Assembly (NCBI GenBank): GCA_035544215.1
Contig: DATKHY010000007.1
Coordinates: 1,240,001 to 1,304,000, forward strand
Source of the DNA: Candidatus Binatia bacterium
GTDB taxonomy: Bacteria > Vulcanimicrobiota > Vulcanimicrobiia > Vulcanimicrobiales > Vulcanimicrobiaceae
Direction: 5' to 3'
Length of the DNA: 64,000 nt
Shown: positions 27,542 through 37,309 of the stretch, piece by piece
How the letters are laid out: each line of letters starts with the position of its first letter
Numbering within the stretch: the stretch's first letter is position 1
The notes under the pieces: model-generated
Seen by the model: the letters and a program-made list of their open reading frames with translations, nothing else
The model's database searches: none
Told to the model about the DNA's origin: nothing
Position numbers and translations under genes: made by a program

Positions 27542-28500
27542 GCCTGGTGGATTCGGCGCGTGCGACCTACGACGACCTGCACTCGGCGGTCGAACGGTTT
27601 TTCAGCGCGACGTTTTCCACGGACAACCCGGTCATCACCGAGGCGATCAAACGCATGCTGGCGGCGGGCGGAAAGCGGTTGCGGCCGCGCATCACACTGC
27701 TGGCCGCCGAAGCGTGCGGCGGCAACTACGCGGATCACCTGCATCTCGCGGCCTACATGGAGCTCATTCACGTAGCGACCCTGATTCACGACGACGTCGT
27801 CGACAACGCACGGACGCGACGCGGCGTCAACGCCACGGCGGTTGACTACGGAAACCGCGTGAGCGTGCTCGCGGGCGACTATCTCTTCGCCTGGATCTTC
27901 AAGAACGTCACGTTGAACTACCCGCACCCGATCCCCAACTTGCTCTCGGCGACGCTGGCGGACATCTGCGACGGCGAGGTGCTGCAGTTGCAGGCGCTGG
28001 GAAATCTCGACCTTCCGATCGAGACGTACGTCGAGATCGCGCGCAAGAAGACGGCGTCGCTCTTCGCCGCTTCCGCGGCGTGCGGGGCCATCATGGGTGG
28101 CGGCGGACCGCGCGAAACGGCGGCGCTGCGCGAGTTCGGCGAAGCCTTCGGCATCGCGTTCCAGATGCGCGACGACCTGCTGGACGTCATCGCCGACGAA
28201 CGCTCGCTCGGCAAACCGGCGGCGAACGATCTGACCGAACGCAAGACGACCCTGCCCCTGATCGCCGCGCTCGCCTCGGGCAACGGGAACTTTCGCTCGC
28301 AGGTTCGGCGTTTCTACGACACCGGCGCCAACGACGCGATTCCCGCGATCGTCGAAGCAATCGGGCGAGAGGGCGGCCTGGCATCGACGCGCGCGCAGAT
28401 CGGTCGCTTCGTCGACCGCGCCAAGACGGCCTTAGAGCCGATTGACGCGAGCGCGGCGAAGATGGAGCTTGTGAAACTCACGGAGGCCCTTGCATCATGA
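27538..28500 (+). CDS. ispB: Trans-polyprenyl diphosphate synthase
   Basis: A 320-residue all-alpha isoprenoid synthase that makes the long side chain of menaquinone. The two aspartate-rich motifs are LIHDDVVDNARTRRG (about 80-95) and QMRDDLLDV (about 210), with GGKRLRP upstream. The chain length cannot be fixed from sequence alone, though the residues before the first motif (MELIHVATL) are small, consistent with long-chain products. Starts with GTG overlapping the ubiE stop (GTGA). Confidence 0.94.
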   Translation: MSLVDSARATYDDLHSAVERFFSATFSTDNPVITEAIKRMLAAGGKRLRPRITLLAAEACGGNYADHLHLAAYMELIHVATLIHDDVVDNARTRRGVNATAVDYGNRVSVLAGDYLFAWIFKNVTLNYPHPIPNLLSATLADICDGEVLQLQALGNLDLPIETYVEIARKKTASLFAASAACGAIMGGGGPRETAALREFGEAFGIAFQMRDDLLDVIADERSLGKPAANDLTERKTTLPLIAALASGNGNFRSQVRRFYDTGANDAIPAIVEAIGREGGLASTRAQIGRFVDRAKTALEPIDASAAKMELVKLTEALAS

Positions 28501-28799
28501 CCGTACACCCGCTTCTCGCAATCATCGACGCGCCGATCATCATCGGCATCCTGATCGTCGGTGCGCTGCTTTTCGGAGCGGAAAAACTTCCGAAGCTCGC
28601 GCGCAGCGCCGGGCAGGCCAAGAAAGAGTTCCTGGCCGGACAGGCCGAGGCCGACGAGGCCGCGGCCAAGGCGCGCGAACAGGCGCGTCAGCGAGCCGAG
28701 ACGTCAAACGCCGACGTGATGAATAACGTCCAGGTCGGCTCGATCTCGGGCGAAGCCGTTCCGCCCCCTACCCCAGACCGGGGCACGCCGAGCTCGTAG
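28497..28799 (+). CDS. tatA: Sec-independent translocase subunit TatA/TatB
   Basis: 100 residues: a short periplasmic start, one membrane helix (about 11-26), the hinge FGAEKLPKLARSAGQAKKEF, an amphipathic helix with Ala/Glu/Lys repeats, and a disordered tail. That is the TatA-family layout, in which TatA multimers form the pore for folded proteins. It overlaps the polyprenyl synthase by four bases and precedes tatC by 19. The Rieske protein in this window is a likely client. No separate tatB is present. Confidence 0.93.
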   Translation: MTVHPLLAIIDAPIIIGILIVGALLFGAEKLPKLARSAGQAKKEFLAGQAEADEAAAKAREQARQRAETSNADVMNNVQVGSISGEAVPPPTPDRGTPSS

Positions 28800-28818
28800 C
28801 GACTGACAGTATCGCAGG

Positions 28819-29598
28819 ATGTTGGCGCAACGCCCGCCGCGCGGAACCGGCGAGGCGCCCTGGGATCAGAAGGAGATGCCGTTCACGGAGCACCTGCGGG
28901 AGCTCCGTAACCGTCTGCTTATCGCCATCGCGACCGTCGGCATCATCGCCGTGCTGCTGTTCTGGCCGTCGCAGTTCGTGATCCGCTGGATGATGCGGGA
29001 ATATTTCGGCGGCATCCAGCTGCACGCGTTCGGCCCCGCCGACGTCATCTTCACGGAGTTCAAATTCTCCGTCGTCGGCGGGATCATCATCGGCCTGCCG
29101 GTGCTGATGCAGCAGTTGTGGCTCTTCGTCGTGCCGGCGATCCATCCGCGCACGCGCCGCATGGTCTACGCGTTCATCCTTCCGTCTTTCGCGTTGGCCC
29201 TGCTCGGCATCGCGTTCGCGCACTTCGTCGTGATCCCGCGAGTGATCGCCGCGCTCATCCACATCACAGACGCCGTCGCGACACCCACCTTCGGTGTCGC
29301 TTCGACGCTGAATTTCGTCATCGTGCTGTTCGCGCTCTTCGCGATCGCCTTTCAGACCCCAATCGTGCTGGTGGGGCTCGCGCGGCTCGGCATCGTCAGC
29401 TCGAGCTCGCTGATGCGGTACCGGCGTCACGCGCTCTTCGGCTTCTTCGTGGCGGGCGGCATCGCTGCGCCCGACGGCAATCCGCTCACGATGGCGCTCC
29501 TCGCGATTCCGATGTACGCGCTCTACGAGCTCTCGATCTGGCTGATTCTGCCGCTCGAGCGGCGCTGGTCTTTCGATAGGCTAGAGCCGAGTTCGTGA
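28819..29598 (+). CDS. tatC: Twin-arginine translocase subunit TatC
   Basis: A 259-residue, six-helix membrane receptor for twin-arginine signal peptides. The conserved start PFTEHLRELRNRLL is at residues 22-35. The later F-x-TP-x-x-V segment is seen as IAFQTPIVLVGLARLG, and the C-terminal helix carries ALYELSIW. It partners TatA just upstream. Its end overlaps the resB GTG start by four bases, linking Tat export to cytochrome c maturation. Confidence 0.96.
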   Translation: MLAQRPPRGTGEAPWDQKEMPFTEHLRELRNRLLIAIATVGIIAVLLFWPSQFVIRWMMREYFGGIQLHAFGPADVIFTEFKFSVVGGIIIGLPVLMQQLWLFVVPAIHPRTRRMVYAFILPSFALALLGIAFAHFVVIPRVIAALIHITDAVATPTFGVASTLNFVIVLFALFAIAFQTPIVLVGLARLGIVSSSSLMRYRRHALFGFFVAGGIAAPDGNPLTMALLAIPMYALYELSIWLILPLERRWSFDRLEPSS

Positions 29599-30953
29599 CC
29601 GCAGCACTGCGCAACGCGTACGCCGACTTCGTGCGCACCTTCGGCAACGTGCTGTTCGCCGTTTCGCTGTTCGTCGTCTGGGGCGTTCTCACGCTGATCG
29701 GCGTCGTCGTGGATCAGGGCCAAGACCCAGGTTCGTACCTACAAGCCTACGCGGCACCGATCGCGCGGGCGATCGTTCGTCTCAACTTCGACAACATCTA
29801 TCACTCGCCGTGGTACGTAGGCGTCATCGGCCTGATCTTGCTCTCGCTCGCGGTCTGCACTTTCAAACGCGTCATCCCCGCGCGGCTCCCGCCTCTGCGG
29901 CCCGTCAGCGTGGAGAAGATCCCATTGCACGCGACGTTCGATGTGGACGGCGCCGCCGGCGACGTTCGGCGCCGCCTCGAGGATTTCTTCGCATCGCGCG
30001 GCTGGCGGATTCGCGAGCGCACGTTCGGCGGCGTCGAATGGAGCTTCGCCGACAAGCACGATTGGGCGCGCCGCGGTGTCTTGGTCGCGCACGCCGGTTT
30101 CGTCATCATCGCCGCCGGCACGACGCTGTACTGGGCACGCGGCTTTTCGGGTGAGATGGCGATCCTGAAGGGCGAAACGGCGCAGGTCGCGCAGACGCAC
30201 GCACTGATTCGGCTGGACGACTTCCAATATCGGATCGCGCCGATTATGACGAAGAGCGGGATGGTGTATCAGCCGGTCGACTACGTGTCGCGCGTCACGG
30301 TCACCGGCAACGACGGCGTCCCGAAGGCAATGATGGTTCGCGTGAACCACCCGATCGACGTCGACGGGACGCTCTACTACCAGGCCAGTTACGGCTTTGG
30401 CATGCGCTTTCTCGTCACGAGAAACGGGAGGCGCGACGCCACGCTGTCGGGCCGCACGTACGCCGAGGGGGAATCGTTCGACGTGCCGGGGTCGCAGCGC
30501 ACGGTGCTCTACGACCGGTTCGCGCCGACGGTCGACAAGCAGAGCGGGATGCCCACTGCAGACCCGCGCGTGAACGACCCCGCCGTGGTACTCGGCGTCT
30601 CGCAGGCGGGCACCGCGCTCGGCCAGGCGCTGGTGCCGTTGCGCACGTGGATCGATCTCGGCGACGGCTGGCGCGTCGTCCCCGAGCGCTACGTGCTGTA
30701 CAGCGGGTTTCAATATCGCAACGACCCCGGCGTTCCGCTCGTGGGGATCGGCGCGTTCGTGCTGCTCGCGGGCCTTATGATCTCGTTTTACCTCTTGCCC
30801 GCTCGGATCTATCTGCGGGTGGACGAGGCCGGCCCGCACCGCTCGCGCGTCGGCGCGGCCGCGACGACCGTCAAAGGATACGACGTTTTCCAGGGCGAGT
30901 TTTCACGGTTGATGCTATCGTTGAAGGCGTCATGCCCGCCGACGAAGCCCTAA
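29595..30953 (+). CDS. resB: ResB-like cytochrome c biogenesis protein
   Basis: A 452-residue membrane protein of the System II (Ccs) cytochrome c maturation pathway. Hydrophobic helices lie at about 17-38, 73-92 and 155-175, with a large extracytoplasmic domain (about 180-385) and a final helix near 400. The ALRNAYADFVRTFGNVLFAVSLFVV start resembles ResB/Ccs1. Together with CcsA it holds and delivers heme to apocytochromes. GTG start coupled to tatC; overlaps ccsA by 22 bases. Confidence 0.93.
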   Translation: MTAALRNAYADFVRTFGNVLFAVSLFVVWGVLTLIGVVVDQGQDPGSYLQAYAAPIARAIVRLNFDNIYHSPWYVGVIGLILLSLAVCTFKRVIPARLPPLRPVSVEKIPLHATFDVDGAAGDVRRRLEDFFASRGWRIRERTFGGVEWSFADKHDWARRGVLVAHAGFVIIAAGTTLYWARGFSGEMAILKGETAQVAQTHALIRLDDFQYRIAPIMTKSGMVYQPVDYVSRVTVTGNDGVPKAMMVRVNHPIDVDGTLYYQASYGFGMRFLVTRNGRRDATLSGRTYAEGESFDVPGSQRTVLYDRFAPTVDKQSGMPTADPRVNDPAVVLGVSQAGTALGQALVPLRTWIDLGDGWRVVPERYVLYSGFQYRNDPGVPLVGIGAFVLLAGLMISFYLLPARIYLRVDEAGPHRSRVGAAATTVKGYDVFQGEFSRLMLSLKASCPPTKP

Positions 30954-31765
30954 TCGCGGTTGCGCTCGGAGCGTACACGCTCGGCGCGCTCGCGTTGCTG
31001 ATCTACTTCTTCTCGCGCGTGACCTGGCTGCGCGACGTCGGAATTCCCCTCGCGATCCTCGGCTGCGCCGCGCAGTTCGTCCAGCTGGCCGTCCGTTTCG
31101 AGCTGACGCACGTGTGGCCGCTGCTGAACCTGTATGGTTCGCTCTCGCTGTTTTCGGCGATGTCCGTCGCGATCTACATCGGATTCGCGTTTCGCTATCG
31201 CCTCTGGTTCGCGGGCGGATTCGTACTGGCTCTGGCCGCGATCTTCCTCGCCTACGGTGTCACCTGGTACGAGGGGACTATGCCGCCGGTGCCCTCGCTG
31301 CAGTCGTACTGGGCGAAGATCCACGTGCCGATCGTCGTGTCGTCGTACGCCGCGTTTCTCGTAGCGTTCGTCTTCTCGTGCATCTATCTGCTCAAGTATT
31401 ACGCCGCGCCGGCCCGCCCGGGCAGCCCCGTCGCCGCATGGCTCGCCGCGCTTCCGAGCCTGCCGCAGCTCGACGTCATCGTGTATCGCGCGGTCGCGAT
31501 CGGCCTGCCGCTGATCTCCATCGGCATCATCACGGGCGCGATGTGGGCGAAGGAGGCATGGGGCGCCTATTGGCAGTGGGATCCGAAGGAAACGGCGGCG
31601 CTGTTCTCGTGGATCATCTACCTCGCGTATATGCACCTGCACACGCGACACGCCTGGCGCGGCCTGCGCACGAGCTGGGTTAGCGTCATCGGCTTTGTCT
31701 CCATCATTTTCTGCTATCTCGGCGTCAACATCTGGATTTCGGGCCTGCACAGCTACAAGGTCTGA
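30932..31765 (+). CDS. ccsA: CcsA/ResC cytochrome c heme-lyase subunit
   Basis: A 277-residue membrane protein with about eight helices. The heme-handling WWD-type segment is WGAYWQWDPKETAALFSW (about 210-228), and flanking His residues occur in HVPIVVSSYA and YMHLHTRHAW. This is the second subunit of System II cytochrome c synthesis, pairing with ResB. The ATG at 30932 lies within the 3' end of resB. Last gene of the operon begun by ubiE; a 130-base gap separates it from the Rieske gene. Confidence 0.94.
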   Translation: MPADEALIAVALGAYTLGALALLIYFFSRVTWLRDVGIPLAILGCAAQFVQLAVRFELTHVWPLLNLYGSLSLFSAMSVAIYIGFAFRYRLWFAGGFVLALAAIFLAYGVTWYEGTMPPVPSLQSYWAKIHVPIVVSSYAAFLVAFVFSCIYLLKYYAAPARPGSPVAAWLAALPSLPQLDVIVYRAVAIGLPLISIGIITGAMWAKEAWGAYWQWDPKETAALFSWIIYLAYMHLHTRHAWRGLRTSWVSVIGFVSIIFCYLGVNIWISGLHSYKV

Positions 31766-31895: not shown

Positions 31896-32576
31896 TTGTC
31901 TGATTTGAACGCGGGCGCCACCCATGGCACTGCCGGTACGCCGTTGACTGCGCACGACGCCCCGGCCGATCCACTGGAGGTCAGCCGGCGCACCTTCATG
32001 GCGAACGCCACGATCGCGATCGGCGGCATCGTCGGCGTGGTGCTGGCCATACCGATCATCGGTTCGCTGCTCCCGCCGAAAAGCTCCTCGGCGGGCAGCT
32101 GGTCGCCGCTCTCCAAGCAAGAGTTGGACGCGCTGCAAAAGGCGACCGACAAGCCCGTCAAGCTCACGTTCACGCTGAAATACACCGACGCGTACCTTCC
32201 CGAGCAATCCGCGCCCGAGTACTGTTGGGGCATCAAGGTGGATCCAGCGAAATTCCAGGCGGCGCGTCCCGACATCTTCAACCAGCCCGGCGGCAAAGCC
32301 AACGTGGACTATCCGGTCGTCAACATGGGTTTCGTGGTGTTCAGCCCGATCTGCCCGCACCTCGGCTGCTACTACAACTGGAGCGACGCGCAAAACAAGT
32401 TCATGTGCCCGTGCCACGGCTCGCAGTACACATTCGACGGCACGCACGTCGCCGGACCGGCGCCGCGCGGCCTCGATCCGCTGCCGCTGCGCGAGCAGAA
32501 CGGCGCCGCGGAGGTAACGTGGATCATCTACCAGTCGAACACGCCTCAGCGCATCGTCGTCTCCTATCAGGCATAG
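31896..32576 (+). CDS. qcrA: Rieske iron-sulfur protein of a cytochrome bc complex
   Basis: 226 residues: a cytosolic head with a paired-Arg-like SRRTFMANA, one membrane helix (about 38-60) acting as uncleaved Tat anchor, and a Rieske domain whose [2Fe-2S] ligands lie in CPHLGC and CPCHGSQ. It transfers an electron from menaquinol to a c-type heme. The start is TTG 31896, supported by AGGAGA nine bases upstream. A TACAAT -10-like hexamer at 31839 may mark its promoter. Cytochrome b follows ten bases later. Confidence 0.94.
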
Positions 32577-32586
32577 GTTTGCGATC

Positions 32587-34098
32587 ATGTTGAATTGGAT
32601 CGAAAAACGCACCGGTTTCGTCTCGATGACCAAGGATTTCCTCACGGAAGACGTGCCGGGCGGAGCGAGCTATTGGTACGTCTTCGGCAGCGCGACGCTC
32701 TTCGCGATGATCGTGCAGATCGTCACGGGAATTTTCCTGACGTTCTTCTACGCGCCATCCGCAGCGACCGCGTGGGAATCGACGCGCGCGATGTATCTCA
32801 ACCCGTACACGCACTTCCTGCTCGCCGTGCACTACTGGGGCGCCTCCGCGATGATCGCCCTCGTGTTCCTGCACCTGCTGCAAGTGCTGATCTTCGGTGC
32901 CTACAAGTCGCCGCGCGAGCTCCAATGGGTCGTCGGCGTACTGCTCTTGCTGGTGACGCTCGTGCTCGGGCTAACTGGCTACCTGCTGCCGTGGGACATG
33001 GATGCGTATTTTGCGTCGCAGGTTTCGTTGAACATCACCGGATTGGCGCCGGTGCTCGGCCCCGTGTTGCAACACATCGCGCAGGGCGGCGGCTCCATGG
33101 GAACGGCGACGATCAATCGCTTCTTCGGCCTGCACGTCTGGCTGATGCCGGCGGTCTTGGTGCTGCTCGTCGGTGCGCACCTGGCGATCTTCCGCCATAA
33201 CGGCTCGGCCGGACCGGTCGTCGAGGACCGCCGCACGCTGAAGCCAGGCCGATTCTGGCCGGATCAGTTCTTCATGGACGGAGCGTTCTCGCTCATCGTC
33301 TTCGTCATCATCTGCTTCCTCGCGTTTGCGTTTCCGCCGTATCTCGACGAGAAGGCCGACCCGACGAAATTCTTCGTGCCGTACCCCGCGTGGTATTTCT
33401 TGTCGCTGTTCGGCCTGCTCGCGCTCGTGCCGCCCGAGATTCACCTCGGCCCGCTCACGATCAGTCTGGAGCTGATCGCGACGATCATCGTCCCGACGCT
33501 CTTCTTGGTGATCGTCCTGCTCCTTCCGTGGCTCGATCGGAGCCGCACCCGGAGCTTTGCCGCGCGAGCCAGGCTGCTGTGGGCCACGACGATCATCGTC
33601 GCCGGCATCGCCGGCCTGAGCATCTACGCCCAGGTCACGACGATGATCAAACAGGCCGCCGCACCGCCGTCGCCGCCGGAATCGGTGGTGCTCAGCGCCT
33701 CTGCGGCGACTCTGCCTCCGGGCGGCGCGCCGGCGGCGGGTTCTGCAACGACGGCATCGCAAGGCTCGGCAACGAGCGGCGCCGGAGCTAAGGTGTTCGC
33801 GGCAAACTGCGCGAGCTGCCACGGCGCGCAGGGCCTGGGATTACCCGGCACGTTTCCGCCGCTCGCAAACAACCCCGTCGTAACCGGCGACGCCAACAAG
33901 GTGATTGGGATCGTCCTCGGCGGCCTGCACGGATCCATCTCCGTCAACGGCCAGGCGTACAACGGGCAGATGCCAGCGTGGAAGGGTACCCTCTCGAACA
34001 AAGACGTATCCGACGTCATCACGTACATCCGCGGATCGCTCGGCAACAACCACGCCTCCGCGGTGACCGAGGCGCAGGTCGCGGGCTACAAGCCTTAG
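32587..34098 (+). CDS. Cytochrome b fused to a C-terminal cytochrome c domain
   Basis: A 503-residue fusion. The N-terminal part is cytochrome b: heme ligands are His pairs spaced H-x13-H (HYWGASAMIALVFLH) and H-x14-H (HVWLMPAVLVLLVGAH). The extra residue in the second pair is the b6-type pattern. A subunit-IV-like part follows, with PYPAWYF at the quinol site where PEWY or PDWY is usual. After a Pro/Ala/Ser-rich linker (about 355-395) a cytochrome c domain carries CASCH and a distal Met (GQMPAW). It thus combines the b, subunit IV and c1/f roles of a quinol:cytochrome c oxidoreductase with QcrA. Confidence 0.92.
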   Translation: MLNWIEKRTGFVSMTKDFLTEDVPGGASYWYVFGSATLFAMIVQIVTGIFLTFFYAPSAATAWESTRAMYLNPYTHFLLAVHYWGASAMIALVFLHLLQVLIFGAYKSPRELQWVVGVLLLLVTLVLGLTGYLLPWDMDAYFASQVSLNITGLAPVLGPVLQHIAQGGGSMGTATINRFFGLHVWLMPAVLVLLVGAHLAIFRHNGSAGPVVEDRRTLKPGRFWPDQFFMDGAFSLIVFVIICFLAFAFPPYLDEKADPTKFFVPYPAWYFLSLFGLLALVPPEIHLGPLTISLELIATIIVPTLFLVIVLLLPWLDRSRTRSFAARARLLWATTIIVAGIAGLSIYAQVTTMIKQAAAPPSPPESVVLSASAATLPPGGAPAAGSATTASQGSATSGAGAKVFAANCASCHGAQGLGLPGTFPPLANNPVVTGDANKVIGIVLGGLHGSISVNGQAYNGQMPAWKGTLSNKDVSDVITYIRGSLGNNHASAVTEAQVAGYKP

Positions 34099-35815: not shown

Positions 35816-37309
35816 ATGCTGCCCATCTCTCTGCGGCCGAACGGTCGTCGCGCGGTGATCGTCGGCGGAGGTGCCGTCGCCGCGCGGAAGGCCGAATTCC
35901 TTGTCGCCGCGGGGTTTCCAATCTTCGTCGTCGCGCCGCACATCGACGAGCGTTTGCTTAGCGTGCTCGCCCAAAATGGCGGCGAGTTCGCGCAACGCCG
36001 CTATTCGCGCGGCGACCTCGACGGAGCGCAGCTCGCGATAGCGGCGACGGACGACGCAGATCTTAATGCTCGCGTTCTCGCGGACGCGCGCGCGACGCGC
36101 GTGCTCGCGTGCGACGCGACGAGCCTCGACGCAGGTGACTTCACGATGGCGGCGACGACGCGCATCGGCGACCTTACGATCAGCGTCGACTCCGGCGGCA
36201 ACGCGCCGGCGTTCTCAGCTCGCGTCGTGCGCGAGCTGTCCGCGCTGCTCGGTCCGCGCTACGGCGACGCGGTGCGCACGCTCGCGCGCGTGCGCGAATA
36301 CGTCAAGGAAACGTTCCCCGCGGTCGAACGTGCGCCGATCTTGCGCGCTCTGGCGGAGCGCTCCGTCGACGAGCTCGCGGCGATGCCGGCGACGACACTC
36401 GTGTGCGCGTCGCGGCGCAGCGAGCTGGCCACGATTCAGAGCCGCACGGTCGCGGCGCGCCTCGCCGAGCGCGGCATCGCGACGAGCATCCTCGGCGTCA
36501 CGACGCACGGAGACCGCGACCGCGAGCGCCCGATCGACGAGCTCGGCGGCGTCAACGTCTTCGTCAAGGAACTCGAAGAGGCGCTGCGCAAGCGCCGCGC
36601 CGATTATGCAGTGCACTCATGCAAGGATCTGGCCGGCGCGCTCCCGCTGGACATGCGCATCGCCGCGATCACCCGGCGCGAGGATCCGCGTGATGCCTTC
36701 TGCAGCGAACGATTTGCCGACTTCGAATCGCTTCCGCCGGGCTCCGTCGTCGGCACGTCGAGCCCGCGCCGGCGCGCGTTGCTCGCTGCGCTGCGGCCCG
36801 ATCTGCGCTACGAGAACCTGCGCGGAAACGTCGACACGCGTCTGCGCAAGCTCGCGGGCGGCGCGTACGATGCGATCGTGCTCGCGATGGCGGGGCTGAA
36901 CCGCCTCGGTCTGCGCGCGGCGCACGTGGTGCCGTTCGGCATCGAGCAGCTCGTGCCGGCTGTCGGACAGGGCGCGCTCGCCGTCGAGACGCGGGCCGAG
37001 GACGATCGCCTCGCCGAGACCCTGCGCTCCGCCGTGAACGATCCCCTGAGCGAGCTCTGCGTCGAGTGCGAGCGCGCCGCGCTGCGCGAGTTGCGAGCCG
37101 GATGCAGCGCGCCGCTCGGCATCCATGCCCGTCTCGCGGGGTCGACCATGGTCGTCGAAGGCGCCTACGCGCCCGCTAGCGGCACGATCTACCGCAAGCG
37201 GCTCGAGCGCCGCGTCTCGACCCCGGAAGAGGCGCGAGCGCTCGGCATCGAACTCTGCGCGCACTTGAAACCGTCCGAGACGACTTCCGCGCTGGGAGCC
37301 CAACCTTGA
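35816..37309 (+). CDS. hemC: Siroheme-synthase dehydrogenase domain fused to porphobilinogen deaminase
   Basis: A 497-residue bifunctional protein. Residues 1-180 form a precorrin-2 dehydrogenase/ferrochelatase-type domain (CysG-N/Met8 fold) with RRAVIVGGGAVAARKAEFL and TRIGDLTISVDSGGNAPAFS. Residues about 190-497 are porphobilinogen deaminase: CASRRSELATIQS, HSCKDLAGALP, GTSSPRRRA and the dipyrromethane-cofactor Cys in RAGCSAPLG. HemC makes hydroxymethylbilane, and the N-terminal domain would oxidise precorrin-2 on the siroheme branch. First gene of a seven-gene tetrapyrrole operon; overlaps hemB by four bases (TTGA). Confidence 0.93.
   Translation: MLPISLRPNGRRAVIVGGGAVAARKAEFLVAAGFPIFVVAPHIDERLLSVLAQNGGEFAQRRYSRGDLDGAQLAIAATDDADLNARVLADARATRVLACDATSLDAGDFTMAATTRIGDLTISVDSGGNAPAFSARVVRELSALLGPRYGDAVRTLARVREYVKETFPAVERAPILRALAERSVDELAAMPATTLVCASRRSELATIQSRTVAARLAERGIATSILGVTTHGDRDRERPIDELGGVNVFVKELEEALRKRRADYAVHSCKDLAGALPLDMRIAAITRREDPRDAFCSERFADFESLPPGSVVGTSSPRRRALLAALRPDLRYENLRGNVDTRLRKLAGGAYDAIVLAMAGLNRLGLRAAHVVPFGIEQLVPAVGQGALAVETRAEDDRLAETLRSAVNDPLSELCVECERAALRELRAGCSAPLGIHARLAGSTMVVEGAYAPASGTIYRKRLERRVSTPEEARALGIELCAHLKPSETTSALGAQP

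Follow-up and report, generated by a model that had tools for sequence, protein, structure and literature searches.

A Class-Wide, Apparently Fixed Cytochrome b–Cytochrome c Fusion with Alanine at the Acidic Position of the Qo Motif

Introduction

How does a cytochrome bc complex oxidize quinol when the PEWY motif of its quinol-oxidation (Qo) site reads PAWY? It has long been debated whether the second proton in complex III goes to the Glu of this motif, and the locus described here bears on that debate. In a bacterial DNA stretch of 64,000 nucleotides (the window), cytochrome b6, subunit IV, and a cytochrome c domain are joined in one chain of 503 amino acids that carries PAWYF. An earlier note, made from the sequence of the window, read the missing acid and the fusion as signs of a compact two-gene complex with altered Qo chemistry. 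Here, we compare the fusion with its orthologues across the class to which the window's genome is assigned, with non-acidic cytochromes b from other lineages, and with known systems.

Results

The fusion gene (32587..34098, + strand) starts with ATG and was characterized by Pfam, AlphaFold2, and fold matches. Along this single open reading frame, Pfam domains follow in order: PF00033 (residues 23-205) and PF13631 (88-252) for the N-terminal part of cytochrome b, PF00032 (266-350) for its C-terminal part, and PF00034 (399-482) for cytochrome c, the cytochrome b matches being above cut-off. Cytochrome b6 and subunit IV make up residues 1-358 (32587..33660, +; Pfam and predicted secondary structure) and share one frame, not the separate chains that b6f requires. 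A linker, partly disordered in the model (residues 359-397; 33661..33777, +; pLDDT <50 at 378-396), leads to the cytochrome c domain (33778..34095, +; PF00034/PF13442), where CASCH at 408-412 and Met462, the likely sixth ligand, point to an electron acceptor of cytochrome c type fused to cytochrome b. The cytochrome b part contains His82, His96, His183, and His198 (32830..33180, +), which we take to be the haem b ligands; Tyr132 (32980..32982, +), a proposed proton acceptor; Asp137 and Asp139 at the start of helix cd1 (32995..33003, +); and the Qo motif PAWY at residues 267-270 (33385..33396, +), extended to PAWYF by residue 271. A frameshift or misread motif is ruled out: the codons, ccc gcg tgg tat, were read directly from the DNA, and PAWYF is repeated in 97 loci.

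In the AlphaFold2 model (55 sequences; mean pLDDT 89.3, pTM 0.73, disorder at 378-396), residues 1-358 adopt a cytochrome b fold, with a best Z of 35.1 in structure comparison and Z of 31-35 against bcc and bc1 cytochrome b chains among the 50 matches listed; Foldseek was also used for structural matches. Seven long helices of this part are predicted to be transmembrane and, if the N-terminus is cytoplasmic, the fused cytochrome c and the Qo loops would face the same side of the membrane.

Immediately upstream, ending 10 bases before the fusion start, is a gene for a Rieske [2Fe-2S] protein (31896..32576, +) with CPHLGC and CPCHGS boxes and an RR-containing, Tat-like N-terminus. Further upstream are ResB and CcsA of cytochrome c assembly system II (29595..31765, +; PF05140, PF01578), TatA/B and TatC (28497..29598, +; PF02416, PF00902), likely the exporter of the Rieske protein, and a polyprenyl synthetase gene. 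Given its CcsA, ResB, Tat, and Rieske neighbors, the fusion therefore sits in a block making and exporting cytochrome and Rieske parts. Downstream, a PMT_2-family gene lies on the opposite strand, and farther on come HemC, HemB, and a class-III aminotransferase, which we take to be HemL-like. The HemC chain (35816-37306, +) joins PF13241, presumably an NAD-binding domain of the siroheme-synthase kind, to the HemC domains PF01379 and PF03900, and HemB is directly next.

To what extent is this arrangement shared? Searched with the fusion protein, 129 of 149 genomes of the phylum matched at E ≤ 0.001. The window's class is represented by 117 genomes; 105 hold 106 matches at E ≤ 1.8e-147, and 12 hold none at that level. 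We read 97 of the 106 strong matches; they come from 96 genomes, one of which contributes two. All counts but that of CxxCH exclude L001 and L032, which are copies of the window itself. All 97 orthologues read PAWYF. Across residues 1-345, the orthologues share at least 50% identity with the window protein (median 70%), with 66 invariant columns, and Ala268 is encoded by GCG in 36 loci, GCC in 34, GCA in 15, and GCT in 12; with all four codons in use, the amino acid itself is conserved while its codon drifts. Taken together, the constancy of PAWYF, the four codons, and the range of identity exclude chance or assembly error. Also invariant in 97/97 are the four His residues, Tyr132, Asp137, Pro267, Trp269, and Tyr270 in the cytochrome b part, and Cys408, Cys411, His412, and Met462 in the cytochrome c domain, whereas residue 139 varies between Asp (42) and Asn (55). 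Each chain has a single CxxCH (99/99, the two copies of the window included). The Rieske gene is likewise persistent, preceding the fusion on its own strand in 90 of the 97 loci, with the remaining seven cut by contig ends (0-82 bases upstream); its box I reads CPHLxC in 90/90 and its box II CPCHGS in 88/90. Two positions after the Ser of CPCHGS, at a site presumed to tune the potential of the Rieske cluster, 46 of the 90 have Phe and 42 have Tyr (two unread). Thus, the single chain, the motif devoid of an acidic residue, and the compact pairing with a Rieske gene, all three put forward in the earlier note, hold across the class. On sequence comparison, the PAWYF b-c fusion belongs to a cytochrome bc complex variant that spans the class and appears to be fixed in it.

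A few class members may nonetheless lack the gene, as five of the 12 genomes with no strong match are at least 90% complete; three of these five contain fusion fragments. Some class members have a second cytochrome b. Two such proteins, L109 (genome G060) and L110 (G094), from genomes of one family, read PDWY; G060 also has a PAWYF fusion, and in G094 the one piece of it observed is a contig-edge fragment that does not include the motif. A third, L100, is a split cytochrome b6/subunit IV pair with PQWY from a genome of the same order, which also has a PAWYF fusion.

The genome of the window is 97.08% complete and comprises 3.23 Mb in 9 contigs. PF00033 and PF13631 each match it once, in both cases at the fusion, so that neither family reveals the second bc complex that the earlier note had considered as the possibly functional one; in control genomes each search was positive in 8/14. 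The fusion protein itself has three matches in this genome, the best being the fusion; the other two are probably cytochromes c, given that both cytochrome b families match only once. Two matches to VitK2_biosynth (PF02621), of the futalosine menaquinone family, are as expected of MqnA and MqnD, and one match is to a COX1-type oxidase subunit. With MqnA/D-type genes present, the substrate is probably menaquinol, an assignment based on the two PF02621 matches and on one cultivated relative. By its agreement with published accounts, the genome probably belongs to class Eremiobacteria of the phylum Eremiobacterota. The relative, V. alpinus, of the phylum assigned to the window, is described in excerpts of its report as aerobic, drawn with a bc1 complex, and equipped with MK-9 in the text and MK-7 in Table 1 (PMC9758169). 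For the class Eremiobacteria, Ward et al. describe, again in excerpt, a bc complex III that is largely vertically inherited and aerobic respiration genes in about 85% of genomes (PMC6664022).

Is the missing acid, or the fusion, peculiar to the class? A scan of the genome collection for PAWYF with its context, the class excluded, gave 63 loci, of which 39 resemble the window protein at E ≤ 1e-6 and the rest look like chance; since the pattern does not allow certain residues ahead of the motif, the scan undercounts PAWYF. A motif unique to the class is thereby ruled out. The 39 come from many Bacillota (Desulfosporosinus, Acididesulfobacillus, Neobacillus), Chloracidobacterium, Pyrinomonadaceae, Planctomycetota, Leptospirillum, Ignavibacteriales, Acetobacter, Tanticharoenia, Bartonella, and others. 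Four further groups were sampled through their best matches, at most 30 loci read in each; these carry mostly PEWY, but also PDWY, PPWY, PPWL, PEWF, and a few other motifs. After removal of duplicates the outside set holds 153 sequences, 96 with an acidic and 57 with a non-acidic motif, the latter including six K/RAWY rows with doubtful motif placement. Of the 153, 70 join cytochromes b and c in a single chain (32 with an acidic and 38 with a non-acidic motif), as called by a script that requires CxxCH 60 or more residues downstream of the motif. With 57 non-acidic motifs and 70 fusions among 153 outside sequences, neither feature is unique to the class. Given this recurrence in several lineages, a P. 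aeruginosa structure that reads PVWY by alignment, and the functional R. capsulatus mutant E295V (PMC10583091), the altered Qo chemistry suggested in the earlier note is, as a special case, not supported. Kao and Hunte, in 2014, reportedly listed PEWY, PDWY, PVWY, and PPWF. A text search, outside whose reach that survey lies, found no paper pairing PAWY with cytochrome b or printing PVWY, and a search of exact strings found none printing at least two of PEWY, PDWY, and PPWY. In a sample of the phylum Planctomycetota we also observed very large cytochrome b frames of about 520-950 aa; CxxCH occurs in several of them, and PDWY or PDF-type motifs occur in some.

Discussion

Can quinol be oxidized when the motif lacks its acid? 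Excerpts of the work on R. capsulatus describe E295 as replaceable with loss of rate but not of function, the single mutant E295V being functional; the double mutant H276F/E295V is inactive, and M154T or N279S rescues it by freeing Tyr147, M154T thereby restoring the proton exit (PMC10583091). In the menaquinol-oxidising C. glutamicum, according to excerpts of the structural study, stigmatellin forms its bond with Tyr153 instead of with the Asp of the motif, although one of the two proton exits put forward there includes that Asp (PMC8795186). A molecular dynamics study, likewise in excerpt, proposes Tyr147 and water wires as first proton acceptor and finds direct contact between Q and E295 to be rare; the conservation of E295 in 94.2% of the sequence set of that study speaks, however, against full dispensability of the acid in it (PMC12199298). 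By alignment, Tyr132 of the fusion would be the equivalent of R. capsulatus Tyr147 and of C. glutamicum QcrB Tyr153, and residue 139 that of Met154, a register supported by alignments of other cytochromes b. It places GYVLPWGQM of R. capsulatus against GYLLPWDMD of the fusion.

From these comparisons we infer the activity of the complex, the quinone it uses, its proton route, and the role of site 139. We think it quite probable that the fusion and the Rieske protein constitute a two-gene complex III, the only one found, in what is probably a menaquinone-using aerobe, and that this complex runs an ordinary Q cycle with the second proton leaving via Tyr132 and water. The binding site of menaquinol would lie between haem bL and the Rieske cluster. 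This cluster and its His ligand would receive one electron and one proton, and from there the electron would reach a haem-copper oxidase by way of the fused periplasmic cytochrome c; the other electron would travel via haems bL and bH. With Ala268 in the motif, Tyr132 is proposed to take the second proton and water to lead it out, with assistance from the polar residues at the start of helix cd1 (Asp137, Asp/Asn139) and perhaps from a haem propionate. The PAWYF complex appears to be a known enzyme in a functional, fixed version, not a novel type of machine.

Compatible with a working Q cycle is the view that the motif acid is simply dispensable in menaquinol enzymes, Ala having been fixed by descent with no compensation, a possibility to which we give somewhat less than even weight. 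The loss of the acid in more than one lineage on the tree agrees with it, as do, in the excerpts cited above, the functional E295V mutant (PMC10583091) and the rarity of direct Q-E295 contact (PMC12199298). Yet a neutral residue sits uneasily with 97 orthologues that retain Ala down to 50% identity and never drift to Pro, Val, Asp, or Glu, a constancy that suggests constraint.

The Tyr132 and water route also has a stronger form, compatible with it, in which the acid lost from the ef helix has moved across the pocket to residue 139 in cd1, there to serve as a replacement proton relay or a hydrating residue. We regard this as unlikely, although several observations speak for it. Residue 139 is Asp or Asn in 97/97 class members, and it aligns with Met154, whose change M154T rescues H276F/E295V in the excerpted study (PMC10583091). 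Outside the class, an acid occupies this site in 23/57 sequences with a non-acidic motif versus 3/96 with an acidic one, and a basic residue in 6/57 versus 32/96, identical rows and L109 and L110 (motif misaligned by the profile) having been dropped from these counts. On a 183-tip tree, a model in which acid at 139 depends on the motif outperforms an independent one (LRT 13.7, p = 0.008), and the corresponding test for Lys/Arg is marginal (p = 0.05); this tree is a quick one that uses no mixture model, with class rows thinned to 44 and outside sampling enriched for PAWY. The site does not stand out, however, since the same test ranks it fourth of 67 columns for an acidic residue with a non-acidic motif; eight rows in all, including L109, L110, and the K/RAWY rows, were dropped from the likelihood test and the ranking. 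The independent-pairs test, in whose trees L109 and L110 were kept, as they were for reading lineages, yields three pairs on supported branches (12 on all), too few for significance. At 139, Leu, Met, Lys, or Ala occurs in several non-acidic lineages, and Asn, which is no proton acceptor, in 55 of the 97 class members. Given the rank, the three supported pairs, and the other residues in non-acidic lineages, we keep site 139 as a candidate, hypothetical position for a compensating acid; the search suggested by the earlier note has therefore produced a candidate, though not one that the statistics prove. In sequence comparison, no Glu or Asp of another segment was seen at the motif position itself. 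It is equally doubtful that the class gave up the ef-helix carboxylate and rewired the exit on the haem bL side through Tyr132 and a polar residue (Asp or Asn) at 139, where suppressor mutations arise in the laboratory; the class would then hold, fixed in nature, an equivalent of the R. capsulatus E295/M154 rescue.

Finally, a slow, leaky, or non-bifurcating quinol oxidation in a complex with another role, argued in the earlier note from the absence of the acid alone, seems to us very improbable against a fusion that is the only cytochrome b found in its genome, that keeps its haem ligands and both tyrosines (Tyr132 and Tyr270), and whose non-acidic counterpart in R. capsulatus, E295V, functions according to the excerpts cited (PMC10583091).

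Overall, an Ala in every class copy read, with both tyrosines kept, is evidence from nature that physiological oxidation of quinol does not require the acid. It adds to the argument on the second proton acceptor and does not overturn it, because similar losses recur elsewhere. The two-gene complex offers a convenient object for testing the role of the PEWY Glu.

Comparison with Known Systems

The closest relatives that we read are fusions from Acidobacteriota, which share with the window protein the single b6-IV-c chain (35-41% identity, mostly over about 420 residues) and, in those read, a PWDxxAY-type cd1 motif. They differ in the pocket: some combine PEWY with Lys at 139 (Asn in two), others PPWY or PPWF with Ala, Glu, or Asp, and two have PAWY; moreover, some possess two haem c motifs or an adjoining extra cytochrome c frame. 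The PAWYF proteins of Bacillota (Desulfosporosinus, Neobacillus, and relatives) likewise carry a haem c motif in the cytochrome b chain, yet have Glu, Lys, Gln, or Thr at 139 and mostly Q-L/M-LK after the motif; one Bacillota genome encodes three of them, 35-38% identical to the window protein. Cytochrome bc1 of P. aeruginosa (8smr) has the same cytochrome b fold (Z 34.8) and a non-acidic motif, PVWY by alignment, but the matched chain is a 403-residue cytochrome b with no fused cytochrome c and has Met at the 139 position. With the cyanobacterial cytochrome b6f, the fusion shares a match of residues 3-211 to cytochrome b6 and the PWD of the cd loop, whereas b6 is there a separate chain of 215 residues and the Qo motif has an acid. 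The cysteine of YCLGG, which in b6f binds haem ci, is also absent from the fusion: position 32 is Val in the window protein and, over the 97 class loci, Val in 80, Ala in 11, Thr in four, and a gap in two. The actinobacterial bcc complexes of C. glutamicum and M. smegmatis have in common with the fusion menaquinol oxidation, probable for the latter, and the fold (Z 34-35), and C. glutamicum Tyr153 would be the equivalent of Tyr132; unlike the fusion, they are built of separate subunits, with an Asp in the motif (Pro-Asp-Val-Tyr in C. glutamicum) and a cytochrome c subunit that is diheme by its NCBIfam name.
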